Part shown: positions 29,498 through 37,472 of the stretch, piece by piece | How positions within the stretch are numbered: the stretch's first letter is position 1 | Layout: the number at the start of each line of letters is the position of its first letter | DNA from: Fibrobacteria bacterium | GTDB taxonomy: Bacteria; Fibrobacterota; Fibrobacteria; UBA11236; JADFYW01 | DNA length: 64,000 bases | Assembly: GCA_015232855.1 (NCBI GenBank) | Contig: JADFYW010000007.1 | Coordinates: forward strand, 1 to 64,000 | Direction of reading: 5' to 3' | Made by a program: the position numbers and the translations under genes | The notes under the pieces: generated by a model | Database searches by the model: none | What the model was told of the DNA's origin: nothing | What the model saw: the letters and a program-made list of their open reading frames with translations, nothing else

Positions 29498-31798
29498 ATG
29501 AAAAAACCGGATGTGTATGAAACCCTGGAGCAGATTAAGTCTGCTCCGTACTTTATTGGGCAGATTAAAAACGAATACCATGCAGAGCCAAGAGAGGGCC
29601 AGTATTCGGAGTTTCCTGATTTTTTAGAAGCTCCTCTTAAATCTGCATTACGTGATACGGGTATTCATAAATTGTATCTGCACCAAAGGGAAGCCATAGA
29701 CGCTCTGGAAGAAAAAAAGAATATTATCATATCCACAGACACCTCTTCCGGCAAATCCCTTTGTTTCTGGATTCCGGTTTTAAACCAACTCCTTCGCTAT
29801 CCCGAGCATCGCGCCATTGCCTTATTTCCCACCAAAGCGCTTGCCAGGGACCAGCTCAAAAAACTTGAATTACTCATTGCCGCCGCACCTGAATTGTTGG
29901 CGGCGATACGGGCGGCGGTGTATGATGGTGATACTCCTTCAGGCAAAAAAAAGACGATCCGTAACAACAGTAACATCATTTTAACGAACCCCGATACACT
30001 CCATGCCTCAATACTTCCTACCAATGGACGATGGGGTCGGTTTTTTTTCTCCGTTCAATATATCATACTTGATGAAGCTCATACCTATCGGGGGGTATTT
30101 GGTTCCCACGTCGCCCTCGTTTGCGCCCGGTTCCAGCGGCTTTGCAAACAATACGGCTCATTTCCACAGTGGATTATGAGCTCTGCCACTGTTAATAACG
30201 GGAAAGAACTGGCAGAGAAATTAACGGGTGCTCCGTTTACCCATATCTCAAAAAGCACTTCTCCCCGGGATGAAAAGAAATATATTGTCTGGAAGCCTGA
30301 GGTCCTAAAACAAGGTGTTATTAAAACTGGCAGTATGTATGAACAGGCATGTTTGTTGTTACGCGATTTTATTTTAGCCGGTCATACTTCCCTTGTCTTT
30401 ACCCGCACACGTCTGCAATCTGAGTTGCTTGGCCGGTATATTAAAGAATCTCTTGAAATAGCAGCACCGGAACTTATTAAATCTGTTGCTGTTTATCGTG
30501 CAGGATATCTTGCCAAAGAACGCCGTGAAATAGAGGCCGGTCTGTCAGACGGTACCACCAGAGCCGTTATCAGTACAAGCGCCTTAGAAGCGGGTATTGA
30601 TATTGGACATCTCGAGGCAGTGTTTATTTTTGGCTTCCCGGGCAGCCTCGCCTCATTCAGACAACGAGCCGGTAGAGCAGGACGCCAGAACCAGAAAAGC
30701 GTTGTTTCTTTTATTCCTTCCCAGAATCCAATGGACCAGTTTTTGAGTGCCTGCCCTTCTTTTTTGTATGAAGAGCCTGTAGAATCAGTGTTTCTAGACC
30801 CGGATAATCCATTTTTAATGTCGTCTCACCTTAAATGTGCAGCCCATGAGTATCCCTTAAGCCACAAAGACGAACAGTTTTTTGGGAGTAACTTTTTTCC
30901 GATAATCGAAATCTTTAAGGAAGAAGGCATTCTCAAAGAGATAAAAGGAAAGTGGTATTCTCCTCAAAGCGTCTCTCCTGCTCATTCTATCAGTCTTCGT
31001 TCTATGAGTGAAGAAGTCTGGGAAATAGTGCTTGTGTCCCGACCAGACAAGGTAATTGGGCAAGTGGATGGATATCAGTTTAATAATCAAATTTTTGTAG
31101 GAAGCGTTTACCTGTCTATGGGTAAAACTTTTCAGGTACAGGGCATTATCGATGATCTCAAACAAGTCCAGGTTGAAGAGGTTGAGATTGATTATTTCAC
31201 CGTTCCAAAAATTACATCCGCTCTCAGTTGGGACGAACAGTTTGAACAACGTTCTTTAGGGAAGGGTGTCATATCCCTTGGTGCGATTACCGAACAATCA
31301 ATGGTTAAGCAGCTTAAACGGGTGCAGTTCCACTCGGGTTATAACCGGGGTGTTTTACCTGTTGAAAGAGCCTTGCCGGTCTTAGAAACCACAGCGGCCC
31401 TGGTTACTCCTTCAGAACAAAGCTGGAAGAAATGTCTTGAAAACAAAAAGAATCCTTTTTCCGGGCTTATTGGATTACGACATCTTTTGCATGAAACTGC
31501 CCCTATAGTCACCCTGTCAGACAAATCTGATATGCGTGTGGAGCTCAATGATAATGGGAAGGCTCTTCCGGGTCTTGCTCTTTTTTGCATCTATCCCGGG
31601 GGATTGGGCCTTGCAGAAAAAGTGTTTGATATGAGTACAGAAATTATGACTTTTGCCCACCGGGTTGTATCCACCTGCGCTTGTGAATCGGGTTGCCCTG
31701 GCTGTGTGGGTTATGATCCGCTTGTTGTGGAGAGTGGAATGGAGGTCTTTCCTGATAAAAAGCTTACCCGGTCCTTTTTATCAACTTTTCTTACATAA
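29498..31798 (+). CDS. DEAH-box helicase with DUF1998-type zinc site (MrfA/YprA-like)
   Basis: The 766-residue superfamily 2 helicase has a Walker A-type STDTSSGKS (79-87), PTKALARDQ, DEAH (192-195), SSAT, the C-terminal helicase block with STSALEAGIDIG and RQRAGRAGRQ, and a four-Cys site C727, C729, C733, C736 (CACESGCPGC). This matches Bacillus MrfA/YprA, a 3'-5' DNA helicase in mitomycin-lesion repair that binds Zn through such cysteines. The nuclease partner MrfB is not next to it; the downstream gene is a sigma factor 150 bases on. The helicase call is firm, the repair role is by homology. Confidence 0.9.
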   Translation: MKKPDVYETLEQIKSAPYFIGQIKNEYHAEPREGQYSEFPDFLEAPLKSALRDTGIHKLYLHQREAIDALEEKKNIIISTDTSSGKSLCFWIPVLNQLLRYPEHRAIALFPTKALARDQLKKLELLIAAAPELLAAIRAAVYDGDTPSGKKKTIRNNSNIILTNPDTLHASILPTNGRWGRFFFSVQYIILDEAHTYRGVFGSHVALVCARFQRLCKQYGSFPQWIMSSATVNNGKELAEKLTGAPFTHISKSTSPRDEKKYIVWKPEVLKQGVIKTGSMYEQACLLLRDFILAGHTSLVFTRTRLQSELLGRYIKESLEIAAPELIKSVAVYRAGYLAKERREIEAGLSDGTTRAVISTSALEAGIDIGHLEAVFIFGFPGSLASFRQRAGRAGRQNQKSVVSFIPSQNPMDQFLSACPSFLYEEPVESVFLDPDNPFLMSSHLKCAAHEYPLSHKDEQFFGSNFFPIIEIFKEEGILKEIKGKWYSPQSVSPAHSISLRSMSEEVWEIVLVSRPDKVIGQVDGYQFNNQIFVGSVYLSMGKTFQVQGIIDDLKQVQVEEVEIDYFTVPKITSALSWDEQFEQRSLGKGVISLGAITEQSMVKQLKRVQFHSGYNRGVLPVERALPVLETTAALVTPSEQSWKKCLENKKNPFSGLIGLRHLLHETAPIVTLSDKSDMRVELNDNGKALPGLALFCIYPGGLGLAEKVFDMSTEIMTFAHRVVSTCACESGCPGCVGYDPLVVESGMEVFPDKKLTRSFLSTFLT

Positions 31799-31948
31799 GA
31801 AAAAAGATCTTTACTTAAGACAGTTTTTCAATCTTGGCAAATTTTGGTTTTTTCTATTAAATGATTCCTCTTAAAAATTTATACACATCTTTTTTTATAT
31901 TCCGGGTAGCATTTTCTTCCTCCTCTTTCGTTATACAAGAGAACACAC

Positions 31949-32440
31949 ATGAAACTGGAAAAAGTTTTTAAACGGCTCTCACCGCTCGCTTTTTCGGTGA
32001 GCCTGGCCATATTAAAATCCCGGGAGGAGGCGGAAGACGTGGTATCAGAAATATTTTTGCATAAAATACCCGGAATTTTGGAAAAAAATCCCGGTATTTC
32101 CCTGGAAGAAATGGGCCGGCTCATAGTCACTATTGCCAAAAACCGCTCTATTGATGTCTATCGCAGGAATAAAAAATCAGTTCCCCTGGTTGTTACCTCA
32201 GGTATTAATGCAAAAATGAGCGGGACTGAAGTAGACAATGTGGATTTTAACCGGGCCATGGATGGTATTGAACCGAGATACCGCGAAGTACTTACCCTGA
32301 AATATCTCTGGGGTATGACCTGGCAGGAGGTGGCTAAAAAAACGGGGCTTTCCCAGCAAGGCAGCCGGAAGCGGGCAGGAAAGGGCCTTTCACTTTTCAA
32401 AAAACTTTTTACGGGTTCCGAAACCGAGGATAACGGATAA
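31949..32440 (+). CDS. ECF-type RNA polymerase sigma factor
   Basis: This 163-residue protein has a region 2 helix (SREEAEDVVSEIFLHKI) and a region 4 helix-turn-helix (YREVLTLKYLWGMTWQEVAK, then KKTGLSQQGSRKRAGKGL). There is no region 1.1 or 3, as in extracytoplasmic-function sigma factors. It would direct transcription of a small regulon, most likely its own operon. The next gene starts 4 bases after its stop and encodes a one-TM protein, as expected for a cognate anti-sigma factor. Downstream are a caspase-barrel protein and a lipoprotein. The ECF group cannot be assigned by eye. Confidence 0.9.
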   Translation: MKLEKVFKRLSPLAFSVSLAILKSREEAEDVVSEIFLHKIPGILEKNPGISLEEMGRLIVTIAKNRSIDVYRRNKKSVPLVVTSGINAKMSGTEVDNVDFNRAMDGIEPRYREVLTLKYLWGMTWQEVAKKTGLSQQGSRKRAGKGLSLFKKLFTGSETEDNG

Positions 32441-32444
32441 GAAC

Positions 32445-33236
32445 ATGAACACAAACAAACACACAAGCCTGACAGACACAGACCTGCAATTGTTTTTGGC
32501 AGGGGTACTCCCTTTATCCAAATCTATTCTTTTGCGAATTGCCCTTCTTTTGAACCGGGATCTTCGCACGCGCCTGGATAAGCTTAAACAGGAAAATAAC
32601 TCCTTTTATACACAGGAATTCCAAAACCTGGAACATAAACTATCCCCTCGATTTGTAAAGGAACACGAAGAGAATAAAACCATCATGTTCCAACTATTCA
32701 GGCCCCGGGCCTTTAGGCTTGCTGCCGGTTTTGCCTGTTTACTGCTAATAGCTACCAGCATATATTATGTGAACATGCTGAGTTCGCAGACGCAGGAAAT
32801 GGTACAGTATGCCTCCAAAGGAAGTTCCCTGGGAGTGCATCTGTATATCCGCAACATCACCACAAGTAGAGTAGAAGATTATCAGACAACGGTAAACGGG
32901 TCTGATACCCTGCAGCTTATTCCTCTGGGCAAAGATGAACAACAGCTTATGGTGTTCGGCTGGGATAAACATGAAGGCCTGAAGATGATTTTCCCGACAC
33001 GCGTCAACCATTCCTCAGCAGTATCTGAAACAACACTTCCTCCGGCGCTGGTTGCTGACGGACTCTCAGACAACAAGCTGATTTGCATTACCAGTTCCCA
33101 TGTCCTTACATCGGACCAGGTAGAAAAAATCCTGACCTCAGCTCCGTTCCTTTCCATGGAAAACGCTTCCTCTTCCCATCTTGAGCAGGATATTTATGTA
33201 CAGATTTATACCCTAAAAGGAAGCCGGCATGAATAA
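32445..33236 (+). CDS. membrane anti-sigma-like protein with extracytoplasmic domain
   Basis: The 263-residue protein has a cytoplasmic part (1-90) rich in charged helices, one membrane segment (about 91-110, AFRLAAGFACLLLIATSIYY) and a periplasmic beta-rich domain of about 150 residues resembling DUF4384-type modules (LMVFGWDKHEGLKMIFPTRV; SSHVLTSDQVEKIL). No zinc HxxxCxxC anti-sigma motif is present, so the anti-sigma role rests on topology and its place between the sigma and caspase genes. It overlaps the caspase gene by 8 bases. It could sense envelope state and release the sigma factor. Confidence 0.7.
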   Translation: MNTNKHTSLTDTDLQLFLAGVLPLSKSILLRIALLLNRDLRTRLDKLKQENNSFYTQEFQNLEHKLSPRFVKEHEENKTIMFQLFRPRAFRLAAGFACLLLIATSIYYVNMLSSQTQEMVQYASKGSSLGVHLYIRNITTSRVEDYQTTVNGSDTLQLIPLGKDEQQLMVFGWDKHEGLKMIFPTRVNHSSAVSETTLPPALVADGLSDNKLICITSSHVLTSDQVEKILTSAPFLSMENASSSHLEQDIYVQIYTLKGSRHE

Positions 33237-35118
33237 GTACCCTGTATCCTGGACCGGCAAGCAACCCTTTGCTTTCACAAACCTGCTATCCATATTAGTT
33301 TTCATGGCCTGTTTAACACTTTCTCCGGCTGCAGAAACGCTATCCAACTGGGAGCGGGTAGGCGTGGTGATTTCCAGTAAAACCGGGCTTGAGCACGACA
33401 AAAAACTAAGCTTTGCTTATGAAGATGGCAAACGCGTTCACAACATTCTTGCAAACATGGGAGACATTCCTCAGGAAAAGCTCTTCCTCATACAGGAAGA
33501 AGGGGTAGCAGCTGTCTGTACACAGCTCAGACAAATCGCGAAGATTATTGAAACCGAAAAACAGGCCGGAAAAAAAATCTTCCTGCAGCTTTACTACTCA
33601 GGTCATGGGGCACACAGCCATTTCCATATTGGAAAAGAGCGCCTCTCTTTTAAAGAAGTAAAAAACCTGCTTGCGGTTGATAACATAGACGCACGGGTTT
33701 TCATACTGGACGTCTGTTATGGCGCTTCCTTTTTTACCGCAAAGGGTTTTACGGCCATAGAGCCACAACCGGTAGAAGTTAAAGTGGACGAGATGACCAA
33801 GGGTGAAGTTATCATTACCTCTTCGGCGGTAAACGAACAGTCTTACGAAGTAAAACCGTTAAAGGGTTCTATTTTTACCAGTCATTGGCTTATGGCTCTG
33901 CGGGGTGCGGGAGACCAGGACCGGGACGGCCAGATATCCCTCTTTGAAGCATATAACTATGCTTACCACAAAACCGTGGCCTACTCTCAGGAAACGCTAA
34001 ACCGCCCCCAACATCCCTCCTACGATATGAATCTGCAGGGCGGTAAGACTCTCGTGCTTACCCGCCCACTGGAGATGAGTTCCGGGCTGATTTTTAAAAA
34101 CTGCCCTGCCGGCGAATATGCCATCACGGACCTTGGCCGACGGTTAAGTATAGGAGATGTATACATACCCCCGGGAGGAGACTTTTCCCTTGCTCTGGAA
34201 AAAGGCACTTATAAAATCCAGTATAATCCACGGGATGAAAGCCCCCAACAGACGCAAATACAACTGGCCACAAACGGCCTCACGTCCCTCAGCTTTGATT
34301 CCTTCACTACAGCCACCCCCCGTGTAGCTTCAGGCAAGGGTCCCGAGTCCTCTGGTTCGCCCGTTGTCAGTGATTCACCTGAAGTTTCAGGCAAAAAAGA
34401 AGTAGTTCTACTTCCGGTAATACGGGAGAGATTCCGAATAAGCTGGACTCCGGTAAGGGCCTGGTCCTGGGAAGAAAAACGGATAGATGCTCTGAATCTC
34501 AATTCCGAACAGCAGAAATATTTTAACCTGCAAAGCAACTACAGCCAGCGCTCCTGGTCCTGGCAGCAGGAGATCAGGGCTGCACTGAGTCTCTCTCCCG
34601 CCATAGCGGTGGGAGTTCATTTTCTTTCGTCATCCCAGGAGCTGGAATCAAAGTCCACCGGACGGGACCCGTTAAACGCAACCAGTACCAGTGCCGCGGT
34701 CTCGCTTACCGAACGTTTTGAACTCACACCCCGTATACTGGGGGCCTACCTGGAGATTATTCCTGTTCGTTTAGGGAAAAACAGTCTGGCAATTGATGCG
34801 GGAGCCGGCAAGGTATTCCTCAATGTTAATACTGCCTCAAAACTGGAACGGGAGCTTTATAGCACAACAGAAGAAAAGTCAGCTTCTTATAGCGGAGAAG
34901 GATATCAACTGGAAGCGGGCCTTAAATATACCCGTTTTATTCCAAAAGGTATTTACCAATTAAATGCCGAACTGGGTATTCGCCTGAGTGGATTTTACCG
35001 GGAAACAGAAATAACCATACCCGGTCACATAGAATCTCCTGATATACATATTCCATCACAAGAATGGGGAGTGGCAGCAGGAGTTATTTTCACACTGTCA
35101 CGGTATTACAAAAACTGA
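33229..35118 (+). CDS. exported caspase-family (C14) protease with EF-hand and C-terminal beta-rich barrel
   Basis: The 629-residue protein has a signal peptide (to about residue 36, ending TLSPAAE). A caspase/metacaspase p20 domain spans about 42-225, with catalytic His in YYSGHGA (H126) and Cys in ILDVCYGAS (C163). An EF-hand calcium loop sits at 229-240 (DQDRDGQISLFE). Residues 270-400 are a beta linker region with a Ser/Pro-rich stretch, and 410-629 are strand-rich with aromatic alternation, like an outer-membrane barrel. The protease would therefore face the periplasm or outside. It overlaps the anti-sigma-like gene by 8 bases and the lipoprotein gene follows by 9, so all four genes form one operon. 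Catalysis and calcium control are inferred from residues only. Confidence 0.85.
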   Translation: MNKYPVSWTGKQPFAFTNLLSILVFMACLTLSPAAETLSNWERVGVVISSKTGLEHDKKLSFAYEDGKRVHNILANMGDIPQEKLFLIQEEGVAAVCTQLRQIAKIIETEKQAGKKIFLQLYYSGHGAHSHFHIGKERLSFKEVKNLLAVDNIDARVFILDVCYGASFFTAKGFTAIEPQPVEVKVDEMTKGEVIITSSAVNEQSYEVKPLKGSIFTSHWLMALRGAGDQDRDGQISLFEAYNYAYHKTVAYSQETLNRPQHPSYDMNLQGGKTLVLTRPLEMSSGLIFKNCPAGEYAITDLGRRLSIGDVYIPPGGDFSLALEKGTYKIQYNPRDESPQQTQIQLATNGLTSLSFDSFTTATPRVASGKGPESSGSPVVSDSPEVSGKKEVVLLPVIRERFRISWTPVRAWSWEEKRIDALNLNSEQQKYFNLQSNYSQRSWSWQQEIRAALSLSPAIAVGVHFLSSSQELESKSTGRDPLNATSTSAAVSLTERFELTPRILGAYLEIIPVRLGKNSLAIDAGAGKVFLNVNTASKLERELYSTTEEKSASYSGEGYQLEAGLKYTRFIPKGIYQLNAELGIRLSGFYRETEITIPGHIESPDIHIPSQEWGVAAGVIFTLSRYYKN

Positions 35119-35127
35119 GGTGCAGAG

Positions 35128-35892
35128 ATGATATGTAAAAATAAGATATCTCTAATAATACTACTTTCCGGTTTACTTTTTTCTGCATTATTATCCGGAT
35201 GTTCTGATGGATATTACATGGCCATGGAAGGCAACAGTGATGAAACTAATGATTATGATCCCTTTCCAAAACCTCTTGGTGACTGGATTATTCCTTTATC
35301 CTATTATCCACATTACCAGTTCCACCATGCTGAATTCGGAAAAGGCGGAAAAAAGCTCACGCCATTTCCCGCGATGCCAATTAGTATAACTGACCGTGGT
35401 AATGGATTGTACGGCTATGAACAGGACAACTTGCATGAGGGACTTTTATTGTGGTTCAGAACAGAACCAAGAGATTCTTCAGGTATATATATAACCGGGA
35501 GGTTTAAAGGAACTGAAAATTTTCCAGGCGACACTGTACTCTGGCTCCCTCAATTTCCGGAAAAAATTGGAAACTGGACCTTTGAGCCTGGTCGAAGCAT
35601 GGAAAGCCTGAGCTATGACACCACCTATCTAACCGCCCCCTTGTTTCCATCTAACGACTCGGGCATTGTGTCCCAGGGGAACGAAGTCCCGTTCCAAACA
35701 CATGAGGCTATTCTTATAAAAGAAACCAACAATGATACGATATCCTATTATTATTTCCGCAAAGGTATTGGCCTCCTTGGATATGAAAGAACCTATAAAG
35801 ACTCTACTATTGCCGTTGGAACGTTATTTAGTTTGAACAAAAACGAGCCATATCACCTCCAAACGGGAACTACAAACTCAAGCCGATTGTGA
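35128..35892 (+). CDS. lipoprotein of the caspase operon
   Basis: This 254-residue protein has a signal peptide and lipobox LLSGCSD. The mature part is beta-rich with many aromatic residues (SYYPHYQFHHAEFGKGG, YYYFRKGIGLLGYERTY). No known domain was recognised. It ends the sigma/anti-sigma/caspase operon and is followed by an AT-rich spacer. A surface partner, activator or substrate of the caspase protein is possible but unsupported beyond position. Confidence 0.75.
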   Translation: MICKNKISLIILLSGLLFSALLSGCSDGYYMAMEGNSDETNDYDPFPKPLGDWIIPLSYYPHYQFHHAEFGKGGKKLTPFPAMPISITDRGNGLYGYEQDNLHEGLLLWFRTEPRDSSGIYITGRFKGTENFPGDTVLWLPQFPEKIGNWTFEPGRSMESLSYDTTYLTAPLFPSNDSGIVSQGNEVPFQTHEAILIKETNNDTISYYYFRKGIGLLGYERTYKDSTIAVGTLFSLNKNEPYHLQTGTTNSSRL

Positions 35893-36200: not shown

Positions 36201-37472
36201 TTGAGAAACAAAGTTATGTTAAATCAGGAAATGAAATATCAAAGCAAAAGTAGATGCGAAACTTTGCCAAACTTTCCTGATATGTGGGTTGGGTTATCAG
36301 TGAAACGAATGAAAGCCGAAGGTAAATCTCTTAAAACTATTGATAATTATAAACGTTCCATCCGCCATTTTGTAACCGCATTTAAAAAACACCCGAAAGT
36401 AATTACTCAAGACGAAATAAAGAATTACCTATACCAAGTAACCAAAGAGAAGAATTTTGTCCCGGCCACCCACAATCTTCATGTATGTGGCATTAAGTAT
36501 TTTTACAACACGGTTCTGGGTATAGAAGAGAAGAATGACGCATTACTCAAAAAAAGAGTACCACAACAGTTATTTGAAGTTTTATCTCACAATGAACTTG
36601 AGCGAACCTTTATTGTAGAAACCAACCTAAGAAACCGACTTCTTATTAAAGCAGGATACGCCTTTGGGCTCCGAGTATATCGTGCAGTTCATTTAAGACT
36701 ATCTGATTTCGACTTAGAGAGAAACCTTCTGTTTATAAAAGGTGCTACTCGAGGCCATGGACGGCCGAAGAGAGCTGGCCTTGAGCATACTTCGCCCATC
36801 GGCACGAAACAAGGCGAAAGGACAGCCCGAAGGGTGCGGAACAGGGATGTGGAGCACAACGGAAAAAAAGATCGGTTTGTTATGCTCTCACAGGATTTTT
36901 TAATTGAGCTCACGACTTCTGTAAAACACAACCAAATAGATGACATCCTATTTTCCGGCTCCACGCCAGGCACTTGTATCTCAGCAAAATTTGCCAATTA
37001 TATTTTACACGCTGCAGCAAACAAAGCAGGCATAACCAAAAAAATCTCTTTTCATACCTTAAGGAGAAGTTTCGCTACTCACCTGCATGAGGCAGGACAT
37101 TCCTTAAGAGATATCCAGGTTGTAATGGGCCACTCAACCAGCCGTACAACCGAGCGATACGTTTCAAACAAACACATATCAACTATCCAAAACCCTCTGG
37201 ATAATCTAGTGGGATTAAAACAAGAAAGGAGGATAGCAAATCAGAATAAATCTGTGGAAAATCCGCAGAATAATAATCAAAAAAAAAAAATGAAAATTCA
37301 CAACAAGCTTACGGGAATAACGGTTTCTTGTCCCCCTATAAACACACAATTGTTTATAGGGGGACATAGACTTCCCCCTGTAGCTAGTTGTATGCTCCGT
37401 TCCGGCCTATTGGAAGTTCGGGACAGGGTTAGGTCCGGACCATTCATCCATGAGATATTCAATTGGGTATAA
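36201..37472 (+). CDS. tyrosine recombinase/integrase with in-frame insertion and extended tail
   Basis: The 423-residue protein is a phage-type integrase. An N-terminal SAM-like core-binding domain covers about 25-115 (SLKTIDNYKRSIRHFVTAFK). The catalytic domain carries Arg (R158, GYAFGLRVYRAVHL), a beta-hairpin Lys in GKKDRF, HTLRRSFATHL (H285, R288), GHS (H311) and the nucleophile Y320 (TTERYV). Two oddities: residues 183-220 interrupt the strand before GKKDRF with a Arg/Gly-rich stretch not expected in the fold, and about 80 residues follow the normal end, reading through a perfect hairpin at 37330-37365. The active-site residues are intact. It opens an accessory region. Integron-integrase identity was considered but not supported. 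Confidence 0.85.
   Translation: MRNKVMLNQEMKYQSKSRCETLPNFPDMWVGLSVKRMKAEGKSLKTIDNYKRSIRHFVTAFKKHPKVITQDEIKNYLYQVTKEKNFVPATHNLHVCGIKYFYNTVLGIEEKNDALLKKRVPQQLFEVLSHNELERTFIVETNLRNRLLIKAGYAFGLRVYRAVHLRLSDFDLERNLLFIKGATRGHGRPKRAGLEHTSPIGTKQGERTARRVRNRDVEHNGKKDRFVMLSQDFLIELTTSVKHNQIDDILFSGSTPGTCISAKFANYILHAAANKAGITKKISFHTLRRSFATHLHEAGHSLRDIQVVMGHSTSRTTERYVSNKHISTIQNPLDNLVGLKQERRIANQNKSVENPQNNNQKKKMKIHNKLTGITVSCPPINTQLFIGGHRLPPVASCMLRSGLLEVRDRVRSGPFIHEIFNWV
36747..36860 (+). other. 38-codon GC-rich insertion inside the recombinase gene
   Basis: This stretch splits the normal FIKGA...GKKDRF strand pair and keeps frame (114 bases). It is clearly GC-richer than the flanking gene, contains short stems such as GGCCGAAGAGAGCTGGCC and CAGCCCGAAGGGTG, and is open in more than one frame. 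It behaves like a palindromic element tolerated inside a coding region. Source unknown. Confidence 0.6.
37330..37365. repeat. perfect 14-bp inverted repeat in the recombinase tail
   Basis: GTCCCCCTATAAAC (37330-37343) and GTTTATAGGGGGAC (37352-37365) flank an 8-base loop. It is inside the translated tail of the integrase. GGTCCGGACC, a 10-base palindrome, follows at 37432-37441. It could be a recombination site arm or an old terminator. Confidence 0.65.

Follow-up and report, generated by a model that had tools for sequence, protein, structure and literature searches.

Background

In the envelope pathway built from DegS, RseA, RseP and σE, an anti-σ of the inner membrane is cut on its periplasmic side, and the σ factor is autoregulated. 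There is reportedly also a published CRISPR-linked cascade: SAVED-CHAT switches on a bacterial caspase, and this in turn acts on a σ/inhibitor pair. In the Csx29/Csx30/CASP-σ system of type III-E CRISPR, a caspase-clan protease cuts the inhibitor of an ECF σ factor, relieving inhibition, and positive autoregulation has been proposed (PMC10028731, where the DegS/RseA-type envelope pathway is outlined as well). In the CalpL/CalpT/CalpS system of type III CRISPR, a dedicated protease cuts an anti-σ and thereby frees its σ factor (PMC11229360, in the accessible part of its text, which also mentions the SAVED-CHAT step of the cascade referred to above). In the literature searched, no account was found of a membrane anti-σ being cut by a caspase.

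Predicted operons of σ70 and metacaspase genes have been listed for Myxococcus, Anaeromyxobacter, Haliangium, Sorangium, Ralstonia and Fibrobacter (Asplund-Samuelsson 2012, PMC3501461). These share the σ-plus-metacaspase gene pairing of the locus analyzed here, and Fibrobacter is named among them. What the accessible part of that text provides is the association alone; the identity of the anti-σ, the barrel, the cut-site motif, the promoter, a mechanism and the four-gene form with a lipoprotein were not found in it. The role of exported bacterial caspases has been open since that 2012 catalogue, and the usual guess has been programmed death.

The operon described below suggests another role. 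Our reading of it, to which we assign a probability of roughly 0.6 on the strength of sequence comparison and predicted structures, is that its caspase would process itself and then, as a site-1 protease, cut its own anti-σ and release the σ factor, which would make the locus a self-contained transmembrane signalling operon.

The four-gene operon

The window is the whole 64,000-nucleotide stretch of DNA that was analyzed; its source genome (G000) amounts to 5.4 Mb in 350 contigs and is ~80% complete. On the + strand, to which all coordinates below refer, lie the genes of a σ factor (31949-32440, 163 aa), of protein 2 (32445-33236, 263 aa), of a caspase (33229-35118, 629 aa) and of a lipoprotein (35128-35892, 254 aa), with intergenic gaps of 4, -8 and 9 bases. 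These are the four ORFs and the spacings of the original prediction, which took them to form a single transcript, and the operon is indeed conserved: in a search of 60 relatives and the source genome, the same order was found in four other genomes (G004, G005, G006 and G008). These four hold the closest homologues of the window caspase; a protein 2 homologue lies upstream of each, a σ homologue before that, and a lipoprotein homologue directly downstream. Identity to the window proteins is 45-48% for σ, 35-37% for protein 2, 36-37% for the caspase and 36-38% for the lipoprotein. The genes are thus neighbours in related genomes, on which the original prediction had staked its case, and since the same order recurs in four of them the arrangement is more than chance. 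A caspase-profile scan of 84,980 species genomes led to these four and no others (it used two short, stringent patterns, and distant members may have been missed). The four-gene operons found lie within one order of Fibrobacterota.

Protein 4 has the lipobox LLSGC, and its gene is conserved in all five operons, bearing out its description as a lipoprotein partner. Homologues occur in exactly 5 of 61 genomes (its own included), in single copy and only at the four-gene locus. Assignment to a known family was rejected, since neither Pfam nor NCBIfam yielded a match above cut-off. The protein is perhaps an outer-membrane accessory with a role in sensing; it and the predicted barrel of the caspase are the candidates for a sensor.

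Just upstream of the operon, at 29498-31798, is a gene for a DEAD helicase of the MrfA/HRQ1 type (with WHD_HRQ1 and MZB domains) that is absent from the conserved operon. Directly downstream is a tyrosine recombinase gene (36201-37472) containing an in-frame stretch of ~105 bases (~36798-36903), of which a copy with 95% identity lies elsewhere in the assembly (G000:C47:11813-11918); the stretch is probably a small repeat that inserted without breaking the reading frame.

The three-gene core in Fibrobacterota

Almost all of the operon-type caspase loci examined in Fibrobacterota have a core of σ factor, membrane protein and exported caspase, frequently with overlapping stop and start codons. 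There is one copy in each Fibrobacter genome (of those fetched) and there are up to six per genome elsewhere.

Several loci show variations. The source genome has two more σ/anti-σ/caspase operons (L032 and L033), which belong to other subclasses and are without a lipoprotein homologue. At L037 (G005:C93), a zinc-motif anti-σ is followed by an extra predicted lipoprotein gene of ~432 aa and then by the caspase; the motifs, of the kind discussed below, are FTAKG in the anti-σ and IQAKG in the caspase. Two loci of genus g11 (L163 and L170) have operon-type caspases with TRTKGG, and no σ or anti-σ was recognised within the fetched flank; their partners may have diverged too far or lie at another site. 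At L144 (G025:C1:512817-514334) two orphan caspases of ~320 aa are adjacent on the same strand, with no σ or anti-σ; single relatives of these are found in G139, G141, G144 and G151.

The σ factor and the operon promoter

The first protein matches TIGR02937 (4.7e-16), Sigma70_r4_2 (5.1e-8) and Sigma70_r2, all above cut-off. Within its 163 aa it has regions 2 and 4 and lacks region 3, which makes it an ECF σ factor, as originally identified.

An ECF-type promoter occupies 31906-31932: GTAGCA (31906-31911), a 16-base spacer and TCGTT (31928-31932). Exactly GTAGCA-N16-TCGTT, with an identical spacer, precedes the σ gene in all five of the four-gene operons, although these genomes differ in G+C (41% versus 61-64%) and their σ factors are 45-48% identical to that of the window. 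The original prediction had proposed a search for a shared promoter motif upstream of 31949 and elsewhere in the genome. The upstream motif is there in 5/5 operons; as for the rest of the genome, in seven genomes the motif is not enriched over a reversed-pattern control. A large regulon is not supported by these counts, and because the motif is not enriched the σ factor looks local and autoregulatory.

The three-gene operons of Fibrobacteraceae (L176-L189) have another conserved block just before the σ gene, GGTRACACTTTT...GTGTTA; it is present in all 14 genomes or in nearly all. Judged by its sequence, this is an ECF-type promoter of another specificity. Both promoter types fit autoregulated operons in which the σ factor would read its own promoter.

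Protein 2 as a very probable anti-σ

Taken by itself, protein 2 stays below the cut-off of every Pfam and NCBIfam family, and its full-length form is found in 5 of 168 genomes of the phylum, the same five that have the four-gene operon. When the profile of protein 2 plus its four orthologues is compared with one of 16 middle proteins from other operons (probability 98.5%, E 2.3e-15, 252 columns), protein 2 proves homologous, over its full length, to the middle proteins of ~70 σ/middle/caspase operons. Among 27 of these, 16 match NCBIfam anti-σ, 15 match DUF4384 (weakly) and three match zf-HC2. The claim that a membrane anti-σ is encoded next to the σ factor is therefore upheld by homology. In the PDB the related profile matches 3hug_B best (which we take to be the anti-σ RslA), and ChrR and RsiW also appear; these matches are all weak but consistent with anti-σ identity.

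The zinc motif HxxxCxxC is absent from protein 2 and its four orthologues. It is present at the aligned position in the middle proteins of L041, L043 and L044, whose zinc ligands align with non-ligand residues of protein 2. A zinc anti-σ is ruled out by this absence; zinc-less anti-σs are known, so the claim is limited to anti-σ. Protein 2 is very probably, in view of these homologies, a zinc-less anti-σ with a DUF4384-like periplasmic domain.

The predicted architecture agrees: a helical, cytoplasmic anti-σ domain (residues 11-66; 32475-32642) with model pLDDT mostly >90, a single transmembrane helix (residues 89-116; 32709-32792) and a DUF4384-like periplasmic β domain (residues 131-259; 32835-33221, from the model), all encoded in a gene adjoining that of the σ factor. 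Residues 11-66 align with the HxxxCxxC anti-σ domains of L041, L043 and L044; the transmembrane helix is seen in the model and as a hydrophobic stretch in the alignment, with basic residues flanking its N-terminal side. A PDB fold search with the model of protein 2 returned weak Ig-like matches only and is uninformative.

The caspase and its predicted barrel

Protein 3 is a C14 peptidase (PF00656, 5.9e-6, above cut-off). His126 of the YYSGHG motif (33604-33606) and Cys163 of LDVC (33715-33717) align with the catalytic dyad, which is intact in 35/35 relatives, and the N-terminus is a Sec-type signal peptide; the intact dyad that had been claimed for this protein is thus confirmed, and its export is supported. 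Asp161, two residues before the Cys, is likewise kept in 35/35 and presumably provides the acidic S1 residue that is usual in metacaspases. A metacaspase-type Asp at this position goes with cutting after Lys or Arg.

The model of the caspase (mean pLDDT 77, from an alignment of 19 sequences) has a caspase domain at residues 40-270, which in Foldseek matches caspases and metacaspases with E down to 7e-8. It is followed by a small β-sandwich, an Ig/transthyretin-like domain (residues 286-355; 34084-34293) modelled at pLDDT ~84-93, and by a predicted eight-stranded outer-membrane β-barrel (residues 402-626; 34432-35106), with eight long strands in the model. Foldseek matches of the barrel region to outer-membrane barrels are weak (pOmpT at E 0.01 with probability 1.00, FhuA, FecA). 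A C-terminal Phe is the usual outer-membrane signal; it is found in 41/72 operon caspases, and the window caspase ends in YYKN. Alternation of residues over the last 230 positions is significant in 14/34 relatives, compared with 0/34 for the caspase domain, and is not significant in the window caspase's own barrel (p 0.28), so that the assignment of a barrel to the window protein rests on the model and on relatives. On this footing the caspase is probably anchored in the outer membrane by its C-terminal barrel. The even number of strands would place the caspase domain in the periplasm, a predicted location alongside the β domain of the anti-σ. Of the original proposal that the caspase acts at or beyond the outer membrane, the anchoring part is probable on the model; action beyond that membrane gains no support, the covariation described next pointing to the periplasm.

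Matched Lys-Gly sites in the caspase and the anti-σ

Besides Met1, the only invariant residues of 27 middle proteins are Lys125, Gly126 and Asp154 (window numbering). Lys125-Gly126 (32817-32822) sits in the linker, immediately on the outer side of the membrane helix, adjoining residues 116-123, where pLDDT is <50; conservation and covariation mark it as the proposed caspase cut site. A second pair, Lys172-Gly173 of the caspase (33742-33747), is conserved and covaries likewise. It lies in the loop nine residues past the catalytic Cys and opens a disordered stretch (pLDDT <50 at residues 171-188), near the position at which caspases self-process, and is the proposed self-processing site. Across operons of many families, the caspases have Lys or Arg at P1 and Gly at P1' in 72/72 cases, and their cognate anti-σs have them in 72/72 and 71/72 respectively (Fibrobacter dominates these raw counts, and it is the clustered and within-genome tests below that are to be trusted). 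The exception is L118 (G167), whose anti-σ site is K-A-G instead of K-G. At the loci of G065/G066, L131 has R-G in both caspase and anti-σ, and L140 has R-G in the caspase and K-G in the anti-σ. Basic P1 residues at both candidate sites in 72/72, together with the Asp at Cys-2 in 35/35, fit a predicted cleavage specificity for Lys/Arg. The K/R-G motif is missing in 9/9 orphan caspases without σ/anti-σ neighbours, which may reflect ancestry since the orphans are a separate group. Almost every DUF4384 match in these genomes is a caspase-operon protein, and hence there is no non-caspase control set for K-G.

The residues preceding the K-G pair covary between partners. Similarity over P4-P2 is 405 for cognate pairs versus 137 for shuffled ones among 69 representatives, 117 versus 26.5 among 21 representatives of <40% identity (0/5000 shuffles) and 48 versus 13 among seven representatives (p 0.0026). 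Shuffling within genomes (38 operons) gives 217 versus 80 (0/20000), and all three flanking controls are null. In the other shuffle tests the P6-P5 and P2' controls have no cognate signal, and in the two least-collapsed sets the P3'P4' control is nominally low (p 0.02-0.05). Matched partner motifs include TRGKG/MRGKG (L155), TRTKG/YRTKG (L132), LRTKG/IRTKG (L168), LRSKG/LRSKG (L047) and IQAKG/YTAKG. A contrast of the closest disjoint pairs comes out at 8 to 1 (p 0.02); because the P3'P4' control also deviates when both proteins are required to differ, this comparison of close relatives is taken as weak support. Part of the data served to form the hypothesis, which was then tested with 35 to 40 newly fetched loci added, so that the covariation test is partly, not wholly, independent.

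A proposed pathway and its alternatives

Covariation between the linker of the anti-σ and the loop of the caspase points to a caspase that acts on the anti-σ, upstream of the σ factor and in the periplasm. The proposed sequence of events is as follows. The ECF σ factor would be held at the inner membrane by its zinc-less anti-σ, and the exported caspase, anchored by its predicted barrel in the outer membrane, would direct its protease domain toward the periplasm. On receipt of a signal the caspase would process itself after Lys172 and then, recognising in the anti-σ the same motif as in its own loop, cut its cognate partner after Lys125, between the membrane helix and the periplasmic domain (a site-1 cut). 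With the periplasmic domain removed, further proteolysis would free the σ factor, and this would transcribe its own operon from GTAGCA-N16-TCGTT, yielding more of all four proteins. Matches to M50 site-2 proteases are strong (1e-61 or better) in G004, G005, G006, G008 and G011; the ~80% complete source genome yielded a partial M50 match and no full-length site-2 protease.

The original prediction made the caspase a product of the σ factor, which envelope stress frees, with death or remodelling as the possible outcome. Taken as output only, the caspase would act on other targets in the envelope or outside the cell (in death, remodelling or predation). This is consistent with a caspase gene downstream of the σ gene in one autoregulated operon, with an exported and probably outer-membrane caspase, and with a σ factor for which hardly any other conserved sites exist, if any, so that the operon is its main output. 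It is nevertheless unlikely: it leaves unexplained why the anti-σ linker resembles the cognate caspase loop over P4-P1, even within genomes, and this covariation points to a caspase upstream of σ and not only downstream. The death or remodelling switch is also unsupported, and a death or toxin module was rejected, for the conserved unit contains no toxin, lysis, death or defence gene.

The covariation could also come from binding without cutting. The nearest rival to the site-1 reading takes the anti-σ linker as a pseudosubstrate that restrains the caspase, making the anti-σ a double inhibitor, of σ factor and caspase, both of which the signal would release; occupation of the active site would give the same identity of motifs. 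We think this quite improbable, since the site adjoins a flexible linker (pLDDT <50 at residues 116-123), well placed for cutting, and no feature marks it as uncleavable. Little credence is given to the notion that the K-G pairs are separate structural motifs (the start of a DUF4384-like domain, a caspase loop) whose likeness arose by accident in co-inherited lineages: both pairs are almost invariant and so perhaps partly structural, operon partners are co-inherited and the downstream control deviated too in one contrast test, but co-inheritance alone gives no residue-by-residue likeness between unrelated proteins, and the effect persists in 21 and in seven distant representatives and within genomes while neighbouring positions are null.

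The site-1 reading may extend beyond the window. Outer-membrane caspases across the phylum might be self-activating site-1 proteases for ECF σ pathways, with up to six such pathways in a cell insulated from one another because each caspase is matched to its own anti-σ by a P4-P1 motif that is also present in its own loop; we see even odds for this generalization. If the site-1 reading is true, one large class of caspases gains a specific substrate, a cut site predicted down to the single residue and a part in transcription, a C14 protease joins the known site-1 proteases, and caspase-family proteolysis, outer-membrane signalling and σ control are brought together in one operon.

Comparison with known systems

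FecA, a TonB-dependent transporter of 22 strands, has no protease domain; unlike it, the predicted barrel protein of the window itself carries the protease. The two loci are alike in their order of σ factor, anti-σ and (in the window, predicted) outer-membrane barrel protein, which in FecI/FecR/FecA transduces the signal (PMC11637429, PMC9249621, in the accessible parts of those texts). With DegS/RseA the proposed pathway would share a periplasmic-side cut of an inner-membrane anti-σ and autoregulation of the σ factor. On the other hand, DegS, an inner-membrane serine protease with a PDZ domain, is encoded outside the σ operon.

The likeness to Csx29 is that of a caspase-clan protease which cuts, or in the window would cut, the inhibitor of an ECF σ factor. 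The Csx29 system differs in being CHAT and not C14, cytoplasmic and RNA-triggered, with a soluble inhibitor and no outer-membrane anchor; the four window proteins have no CHAT domain and no defence-system match, which places them outside the CRISPR systems. CalpL differs from the window caspase in that, according to the accessible part of its description, it is a Lon-family protease, cytoplasmic and triggered by a cyclic nucleotide. If the SAVED-CHAT cascade works as reported, a caspase acting on a σ/inhibitor pair has a cytoplasmic precedent, and what would be new here is its envelope version.
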